Source: Atopobiaceae bacterium (GTDB taxonomy: Bacteria; Actinomycetota; Coriobacteriia; Coriobacteriales; Atopobiaceae). From it: 64,000 bases of DNA. The notes under the pieces were generated by a model. It searched no databases and was not told the DNA's origin. It saw only the letters and a program-made list of their open reading frames with translations. The DNA is taken from positions 1 through 64,000 of the forward strand of contig JAFWKQ010000116.1 of the NCBI GenBank assembly GCA_017545665.1, read 5' to 3'. This document shows positions 13,760-35,456 of this stretch, in pieces (position 1 is the first letter of the stretch; every line of letters starts with the position of its first letter). A program made the position numbers and the translations under genes.

Positions 13760-13834
13760 TGGGTACAAAGGGGACAGTCCCCTTTGTACCCAAAGCCAAA
13801 AGTGGGCCAAAGGGGACAGTCCCCTTTGTCCCAC
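13759..13834. repeat. Two GGGGACAGTCCCC palindromes inside the AmmeMemoRadiSam operon, family B
   Basis: The first (13759-13793) is a perfect 17+1+17 palindrome with GGGTAC arms. The second (13802-13834) is 16+1+16 with one mismatch. They fill the gap between the fusion gene stop and the radical SAM start and could attenuate or process the transcript. Confidence 0.85.
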
Positions 13835-22437: not shown

Positions 22438-22524
22438 CATTGGGTACAAAGGGGACTGTCCCCTTTCATTGGGTACAAAGGGGACTGTCCCCTTTCATTG
22501 GGTACAAAGGGGACTGTCCCCTTT
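22438..22524. repeat. Three tandem 29-bp units with family B palindrome
   Basis: Units start at 22438, 22467 and 22496, each CATTGGGTACAAAGGGGACT then GTCCCCTTT, identical except at the last 3' end. Each contains the GGGGACTGTCCCC palindrome. The array lies upstream of the phospholipase-like gene. Confidence 0.92.
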
Positions 22525-22568
22525 GGCCCGCTTTTCCCTGCAGTTGGAACCAGGAAGGCCAAAAAACT

Positions 22569-28347: not shown

Positions 28348-28436
28348 GCCCACGTGCCCGCGTCCATGCCGTCCCGCATGCGGCTCCGCGCTCGCTTCGT
28401 GAGTCGCCGCCCGTGGGACGGCGCGAGCGCGTGGGC
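28348..28436. repeat. Family A palindrome copy 4 with shortened core
   Basis: Imperfect arms at 28348-28384 and 28406-28436 enclose a core that lacks about 13 bases between two CTTCG repeats compared with other copies, as expected from slippage. It overlaps the next palindrome by a few bases. Confidence 0.8.
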
Positions 28437-28462
28437 CAAAGGGGACTGTCCCCTTTGTACCC
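28433..28462. repeat. GGGGACTGTCCCC palindrome, family B
   Basis: Core AAAGGGGACTGTCCCCTTT with unequal arms GGGCC and GTACCC. It lies just past the stop of the HAD phosphatase gene and touches the family A copy. Confidence 0.85.
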
Positions 28463-33820: not shown

Positions 33821-33861
33821 CAAAGCGGGACAAAGGGGACTGTCCCCTTTGTCCCGCTTTG
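33821..33861. repeat. Perfect 41-base GGGGACTGTCCCC palindrome, family B
   Basis: 20+1+20 bases without mismatch; arms CAAAGCGGGACAAAGGGGAC and complement. It lies between the glucokinase start region and the aminotransferase stop, and its end is three bases from the stop codon of the latter, so it probably terminates it. Confidence 0.92.
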
Positions 33862-33863
33862 CG

Positions 33864-35354
33864 TTACTGCCGGTAGTAGCCCAAGAATCGCTCGATCTTG
33901 TCGAGGGCCTCTCCCAGGATGGCACGTCGCGGCAGGAACACGATGCGGAAGTAGCCGGGCGTATGCCAATTGAATCCCTTACCTGGCACAATGAGCACGT
34001 GCTCGTCCTGCAGCAAGTCGAGTTGGAACTGCTCATCATCGGTAATGTTGAACTTCTGCGGGTCTAGGCGCGGAAAAACGTAGAACGCCGCCTTGGGCTT
34101 TACCACGCTCACGCCGTCTATGGCACGCAACCGCTCGTACACGAAGTCGCGTTGGTTGCACACGCGACCGCCGGGAACAACATAGTCCTTTACGGACTGA
34201 TGCCCCCCAAGCGCCGTCTGCACGATGGACTGCGCGGGCACGTTGGAGCACAGGCGCATGTTGGACATCATGTTGATGCCCTCAATAAGACCGCGTCCCA
34301 GTCGCTTGTTGCCGCTAATGGATATCCAGCCAACACGCCATCCCGCAATCATGTGGCTCTTTGAAAGGCCATTGAAGGTAATGCAGAACAGATCCGGCGC
34401 AAGGCTCGCGATGCTCACGTGCTCCTCGCCATCCATCACCAGGCGATCGTAGATCTCGTCCGAGAGAATGATGAGCTGGTTCTCACGCGCGATCTGAACG
34501 ATCTCCTCAAGCACTTCGCGCGGATAGAGCGCGCCCGTGGGATTGTTGGGATTAATGATCACGATGGCTTTGGTGTTGCTGTTTACCTTGGAACGCATGT
34601 CATCAATGTCGGGCATCCAGTCCGCCTGCTCATCGCAGAGGTAATGGACGGCCTTTCCCCCGGCAAGCGTCACGCAGGCAGTCCACAGCGGATAGTCGGG
34701 GCTCGGCACCAGAATCTCGTCCCCCGTCTCTATCATGGCCTGCATCACCAAATTGATAAGGTCGCTCACGCCGTTGCCGGTATAGATATCGCTCATCGTC
34801 ACGTTGGGAATATGCTTAATCTGGTCGTACTGCATGATTGCCTTGCGCGCGCTCCACAAGCCATGGCTGTCGGAATAGCCCTCCGTCTCGCGCAGCTGCG
34901 TGGCCATGTCTATGACCACCTCGTCGGGCGCCCTAAAGCCAAACGGCGCGGGATTGCCGATGTTCAGCTTAAGAATGTGAACACCGTCCTCCTCCATCCG
35001 CTTGGCTTCGTCGAGCGCGGGGCCGCGAACGTCGTAGGACACGTGGTCGAGCTTGCTGGATTTGGTAAAGCGTCGCATGGGCCTCTCCTTCTGTTCGTTG
35101 AACTTGTTGAGCTCGCTTTTTCTTTGATCCTGTGGCTCTTCGTTGCCGGCAAGCCACTCCTCCGACACGTCCAAGGCCTCCGCAAGGACGCAAAGCATAT
35201 CCGGCCGCGGGGTGGTCTTACCGCTTACGTACTGGCTGAGCTGGCTTTTTCCGAGCTTTTGTCCACGCGCGGCAACCAGGCGCAACACATCGACCTGCTT
35301 GAGCCCCTTGTCCCTCATCGCTTCCTGCAGGCGTTGGGAAAACAGATTCTGCAT
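33864..35354 (-). CDS. HTH-aminotransferase fusion (Cro/CI-type HTH plus AlaA-like)
   Basis: 496 residues. Residues 1-70 form a Cro/CI-type HTH (LKQVDVLRLVAARGQKLGKS then QLSQYVSGKTTPRP). Residues about 93-496 form a class I PLP aminotransferase very like alanine transaminase AlaA (KLNIGNPAPFGF, NPNNPTGA, PLP Lys in NGLSKSHMIAGW, ANVPAQ-like NVPAQS). An internal ATG at 35078 (residue 93) has a strong AAGGAG site, so the enzyme domain may also be made alone. Palindromic operators lie upstream, suggesting autoregulation and possibly metabolite-sensing. MocR proteins are analogous but use a GntR-type HTH. Confidence 0.93.
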   Translation of the reverse strand: MQNLFSQRLQEAMRDKGLKQVDVLRLVAARGQKLGKSQLSQYVSGKTTPRPDMLCVLAEALDVSEEWLAGNEEPQDQRKSELNKFNEQKERPMRRFTKSSKLDHVSYDVRGPALDEAKRMEEDGVHILKLNIGNPAPFGFRAPDEVVIDMATQLRETEGYSDSHGLWSARKAIMQYDQIKHIPNVTMSDIYTGNGVSDLINLVMQAMIETGDEILVPSPDYPLWTACVTLAGGKAVHYLCDEQADWMPDIDDMRSKVNSNTKAIVIINPNNPTGALYPREVLEEIVQIARENQLIILSDEIYDRLVMDGEEHVSIASLAPDLFCITFNGLSKSHMIAGWRVGWISISGNKRLGRGLIEGINMMSNMRLCSNVPAQSIVQTALGGHQSVKDYVVPGGRVCNQRDFVYERLRAIDGVSVVKPKAAFYVFPRLDPQKFNITDDEQFQLDLLQDEHVLIVPGKGFNWHTPGYFRIVFLPRRAILGEALDKIERFLGYYRQ

Positions 35355-35367
35355 CGGCTACTCCAAA

Positions 35368-35456
35368 AGTTCAATTTAAGACAAACTAAATTGAACTCAC
35401 CATACCACGGGTGTGGATAAGTTCAAGTGTGAACTCAAAAGTTCATTTTGAGTTCA
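35368..35456. promoter_or_regulatory. Three palindromic GTTCA/TGAAC operator-like sites
   Basis: Site 1: AGTTCAATTTA (35368-35378) and TAAATTGAACT (35387-35397). Site 2: GTTCAAGTGTGAAC (35421-35434). Site 3: TGAACTCAAAA (35430-35440) and TTTTGAGTTCA (35446-35456). They lie directly before the HTH-aminotransferase start, in a region also upstream-adjacent to the BspA-like gene terminus. Confidence 0.75.

Follow-up and report, generated by a model that had tools for sequence, protein, structure and literature searches.

The hth-alaA gene of an Atopobiaceae bacterium, in which a phage-type DNA-binding head is joined to an AlaA-type transaminase, likely encodes a dedicated autoregulatory trigger enzyme and, from a second start within the same reading frame, a free isoform of that enzyme. 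Its product combines an intact enzyme with a DNA-binding domain of its own and with conserved sites at its own promoter, and we therefore call it a trigger enzyme, a variant with a TP901-1 CI-like head on AlaA. As in PutA, NadR and the group II biotin ligase BirA, an enzyme carrying its own DNA-binding domain would regulate its own pathway, and biotin ligases, like AlaA, occur both with and without such a domain. The enzyme and the HTH differ from those of PutA, NadR and BirA, however, and both forms of the fusion appear to come from one gene.

The fusion gene and its probable internal start

The gene lies on the minus strand of the window, the whole 64,000-nucleotide stretch of DNA that was analysed, and its 496 codons begin with an ATG preceded by GGAG (35364-35361). 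The preliminary description had placed a Cro/CI-type HTH N-terminal to an AlaA-like aminotransferase, and this order is confirmed by matches to Pfam HTH_3 (residues 11-68; 32.5 bits against a cut-off of 23) and Aminotran_1_2 (residues 126-477; 196 bits), and by a top PDB match of the enzyme part to E. coli AlaA (4cvq; residues 90-496, 536 bits). In the AlphaFold2 (AF2) model, whose overall confidence is moderate (pTM 0.54), the HTH is confidently folded and the linker is disordered. The AAGGAG noted earlier ahead of the internal ATG (residue 93) is present as described. The features of the locus are as follows.

33864..35354, minus strand: hth-alaA fusion gene, 496 aa (ORF, Pfam, PDB match)
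35145..35342, minus strand: Cro/CI-type HTH, residues about 5-70, five helices, recognition segment LGKSQLSQYVSGK (Pfam; nearest solved relative phage TP901-1 CI; AF2 pLDDT 86-97)
35082..35144, minus strand: hypervariable linker, residues 71-91 (relatives differ in length and sequence; AF2 pLDDT < 50 at 74-90)
35085..35090, minus strand: internal Shine-Dalgarno (SD) AAGGAG, 6 nt 5′ of the internal ATG (sequence and comparison of fused genes)
35076..35078, minus strand: internal ATG start codon (residue 93), at which free AlaA is predicted to begin (homologous to the sole start of the HTH-less relative L026)
33867..35078, minus strand: AlaA-type fold-type-I transaminase domain, catalytic residues intact (Pfam, PDB match, alignment)
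35367..35377, minus strand: predicted operator half-site AAATTGAACTT, adjoining the main ribosome-binding site (sequence and comparison)
35388..35398, plus strand: predicted inverted half-site AAATTGAACTC, reading GAGTTCAATTT on the gene strand, directly past the putative -10 (sequence and comparison)
35417..35426, minus strand: half-site TTGAACTTAT, with a possible double role as -35, 16 nt ahead of TATGGT (sequence reading; putative promoter)
35430..35456, unstranded: three more AGTTCA/TGAACT cores at 35430, 35441 and 35452, including the inverted repeat TGAACTCAAAA-TGAAC-TTTTGAGTTCA (sequence)
35098..35104, unstranded: possible intragenic half-site AGTTCAAC in linker-coding DNA, just 5′ of the internal SD (sequence; class-wide ATTGAAC enrichment in linker DNA)
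33827..33846, minus strand: terminator-like palindrome 3′ of the gene, which also belongs to a dispersed repeat (sequence)

The dispersed palindromic repeat GGGACAGTCCCCTTTGTCCC occurs at window positions 13762-13832, 22443-22529, 28433-28461 and 33827-33855, with 13 matches against 0.5 expected by chance, and a similar sequence is present in the related locus L103.

An internal ATG at the N terminus of the AlaA part is found in 96 of 101 fused genes, in which the linker peptide is unconserved; the five genes that lack it indicate that it is dispensable in some lineages. Pairing with the anti-SD sequence reaches -6 kcal/mol or below ahead of 85% of the internal ATGs, as against 12% of the other in-frame ATGs of the same genes and 46% in synonymous recodings. 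The SD cores occupy all three codon phases (48/22/18), stand 4-8 nt from the ATG in 83 of 88 cases, and are at least as strong as those of the main starts. The strongest cases are those of the QRS type, and synonymous recoding would produce many of the KEV-type SDs almost as readily. In L026, a member of the fused clade without an HTH, the gene begins exactly at the ATG homologous to the internal start, although the long branch of this protein leaves its exact position in the tree unsure. Because the SD is kept across codon phases while the linker turns over, and because L026 starts where it does, an internal ribosome-binding site seems to be under selection at the nucleotide level, and the second start very probably also yields a headless enzyme. 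The preliminary description had proposed that one gene gives both a DNA-binding enzyme and a free one; comparison of relatives upholds the selected internal start and makes DNA binding very likely. In AerR, too, a single bacterial regulator exists as long and short isoforms that differ at the N terminus (PMC6199135), although that protein, a photoreceptor that uses B12, acts on CrtJ and is not an HTH-bearing enzyme.

The chief competing account is a simple homeostat that regulates itself by its own concentration alone; its aminotransferase domain would sense nothing, and its internal SD would be a translational pause site between folding domains or a relic. Ribosome pausing has been proposed as an effect of SD-like sequences within genes, the five genes mentioned above do without the internal ATG, and nothing links DNA binding to ligands. 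Pausing, however, does not need an ATG, and a relic would decay as linker length and frame shifted; the tight spacing, the strength of the SD relative to the main starts and the start of the L026 gene at this very ATG speak against both roles. We regard this rival as possible but the less likely account.

The enzyme part and the CI-type head

The fusion contains a full-length class I/II aminotransferase domain that is closest to AlaA and retains the Schiff-base lysine and the aspartate, tyrosine and arginine residues that contact PLP and substrate. In an alignment of 99 AlaA domains that includes E. coli AlaA, residues Y129, N179, D207, Y210, K240 and R248 (E. coli AlaA numbering) are identical in every row and R378 is kept in 98, the remaining row being a gap, which bears out the earlier remark that the PLP motifs look intact. 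K240 corresponds to Lys332 of the fusion protein. Since the catalytic residues are invariant, the fused protein is expected to be active as a transaminase. E. coli AlaA, a glutamate-pyruvate aminotransferase, corresponds to the C-terminal 407 residues of the fusion, shares its catalytic residues and has its N terminus at the internal start, but it lacks an HTH, whereas the fused gene has predicted operators and two starts.

The preliminary description had also set the protein apart from the MocR-type regulators, and this distinction holds. MocR, GabR and PdxR likewise carry an N-terminal DNA-binding domain on a C-terminal fold-type-I PLP domain, a shared layout (PMC5320631) that would allow the aminotransferase domain of the fusion to be a sensor that binds an effector without turnover. 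Their head, however, is a GntR-type winged helix, whereas that of the fusion matches HTH_3 and not GntR and has a phage CI as its nearest solved relative. A MocR-like sensor is rendered very improbable by this CI-type head, by the intact AlaA-type active site, by an identity of up to 64% to unfused clostridial AlaA, and by the conserved start for a free aminotransferase domain, for which a pure sensor would have no use. In BzdR, too, an XRE-type HTH is joined by a linker to an enzyme-derived, shikimate-kinase-like domain (PMC3602430), but there the enzyme domain has lost its activity.

The nearest solved relative of the head is the N-terminal domain of TP901-1 CI (E 1e-10), with which it aligns through the segment KLxKSxLSQYV; it is a five-helix HTH with a CI-type recognition segment. 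The HTH also gave apparent matches to BurrH repeats, but these add up weak repeat hits and were disregarded. The TP901-1 and phi13 CI proteins (PDB 5a7l, 3zhm, 6tri) share with the fusion this segment, an AGTTCA operator core and a flexible linker to an oligomeric part. In the fusion, by contrast, a transaminase takes the place of the CI oligomerization helices, and the half-sites occur in all orientations, one to five helical turns apart.

Half-sites before the gene

Upstream of the window gene, six GTTCA/TGAAC cores lie inside 90 bp. An array of AAGTTCAATTT and its complement AAATTGAACTT precedes nearly all fused genes, including the clostridial ones, though the flanking DNA is not conserved; L097, whose contig ends early, shows no upstream half-sites. 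In total, TTGAAC/GTTCAA occurs 411 times in 19.2 kb upstream of fused genes (21.4/kb), compared with 0.86/kb in their HTH DNA and 1.13/kb in their aminotransferase DNA. Upstream of unfused alaA it occurs three times in 8 kb (about 0.4/kb), a count that leaves out L171, L172 and L174, which were found to be fused and with which it becomes five in 8.6 kb. The HTH-less L026 has no operators upstream.

The motif derived from this conservation has the same AGTTCA core as the TP901-1 CI half-site, whose consensus is AGTTCAYR (PMC8516035) and which is represented in the operator OL, AGTTCATGAAACGTGAACT (PMC4941734). The case that the HTH binds the upstream array, as it very probably does, rests most strongly on this match to the half-site of its nearest solved relative. 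TP901-1-type phage repressors share the half-site (PMC8516035, PMC7250872), and the sites could in principle serve another regulator such as a prophage CI, but this is highly unlikely given that they track the fusion across two phyla, almost never precede unfused alaA, do not precede the HTH-less gene, and hardly occur elsewhere in their genomes.

Distances between neighbouring half-sites cluster near 10-12, 20-23, 30-33, 42-44 and 53 bp, with a similar pattern in tandem, converging and diverging pairs. Phasing at 10.5 bp remains significant when the set is dereplicated to 44 upstream regions (R=0.49; p=0.0002 in a jitter test) and further to 17 (R=0.59) and 8 (R=0.74). Within the linker DNA, the 7-mer ATTGAAC, seen for example in L027, L048, L050 and L130, occurs 20 times against 2.1 expected under synonymous recoding, an enrichment which suggests that some fused genes may carry intragenic operators.

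The exact 10-mer AATTGAACTT is present in zero to three copies in most related genomes, often at the fusion locus only. Searches of relatives with AATTGAACTT and with paired half-site patterns found no convincing wider regulon, and the off-locus matches that were inspected are mostly single and lie within other coding frames. Because the exact sites are nearly unique to the fusion locus, the protein is probably a dedicated autoregulator. The preliminary description had envisaged control of transcription in general; with candidate sites almost solely at the gene's own promoter, autoregulation replaces it as the supported reading. In genome G439 (L140, 2597-2615), a tandem half-site pair lies where a gene predicted to encode a nucleotide-disulfide oxidoreductase begins, a possible second target. 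A sigma-70 promoter scan of the region returned no promoter at its threshold.

Spread of the fusion and a proposed mechanism

The database search suggested earlier for this domain order finds it widely: the fused gene, whole or fragmentary, is present in 27 of 40 related genomes searched, from many genera, and a scan of named genomes with an HTH profile gave 210 confirmed loci. The best 80 of these 210, which were kept for analysis, come from Atopobiaceae, Coriobacteriaceae, Eggerthellaceae, Lachnospiraceae, Oscillospiraceae and other Clostridia. In samples of the two groups, AlaA is mostly unfused in Clostridia, and fused forms in Actinomycetota are confined to the order of the window. The domain order is presumably that of CDD PRK13355, provisionally named "bifunctional HTH-domain containing protein/aminotransferase", to which, as far as we are aware, no operator, isoform or function has ever been assigned. 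A literature search, with subscription papers mostly beyond its reach, found no study of the HTH-AlaA architecture.

In a tree of aminotransferase domains, all fused proteins, from Coriobacteriia and some Clostridia, form one clade (support 100/100) nested among unfused clostridial AlaA. The tree is most simply read as one fusion that later spread, both inside Coriobacteriia and Clostridia and from one of these groups to the other. Mis-binning of metagenome-assembled genomes was considered as the origin of the clostridial copies and appears unlikely, as 16 copies group together on a separate branch of the first tree (SH-aLRT 97) and one lies on a Roseburia plasmid record; in a second tree, to which L026 was added, the 16 are not resolved as a single group. 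The plasmid copy (Roseburia sp. 831b, NZ_CP135163.1, 34625-36100) matches residues 2-496, HTH included, at 65.5% identity, and points to a possible route of transfer. Candidatus Eisenbergiella pullistercoris has two fused copies in one genome (L084 and L102), with an operator array at each.

The comparative record establishes the fusion, its intact active site, the operator array with its near-uniqueness to the locus and its helical phasing, and signs of selection on the internal SD; DNA binding itself, the sign of regulation, the two isoforms, mixed dimers and a response to PLP, pyruvate, alanine or glutamate are inferences that go beyond it. In the mechanism proposed here, full-length HTH-AlaA would be catalytically active as an alanine transaminase and, in keeping with its fold class, is assumed to be dimeric; its CI-type heads on flexible tethers would bind AGTTCAA half-sites that share a DNA face along the gene's own promoter. 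Two heads tethered to an oligomeric core would require a single DNA face but would tolerate differences in orientation and in the number of turns. AraC likewise tolerates changes in the orientation of its sites and the number of turns between them. Head binding would repress the gene's own transcription, with activation less likely, because half-sites coincide in part with the putative -35 and with the probable transcription start. The second start, exactly where ordinary AlaA begins, would give free AlaA from the same mRNA, supplying enzyme without DNA binding, and mixed dimers with one head could weaken repression. Ligand sensing, and with it the earlier idea of a sensor for alanine and pyruvate, is plausible. 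Conceivably, though this can be offered only tentatively, the gene makes two proteins in a set ratio, namely a self-repressing dimer that bridges phased half-sites in any orientation and senses alanine/pyruvate flux at its active site, and a headless titrator that acts via mixed dimers; if true, this would be a self-contained metabolic feedback circuit within a single ORF.

The fusion is a widespread and apparently unstudied case in which the head of a phage-type repressor has taken over an enzyme of central metabolism; it occurs in Coriobacteriia that are common in gut and rumen (Collinsella, Olsenella, relatives of Atopobium, and Eggerthellaceae) and in some Clostridia. It offers a natural system for the passage from enzyme to regulator without loss of catalysis, for one gene encoding two forms, and for flexibly tethered heads that read half-sites alike only in the face of the DNA they occupy.
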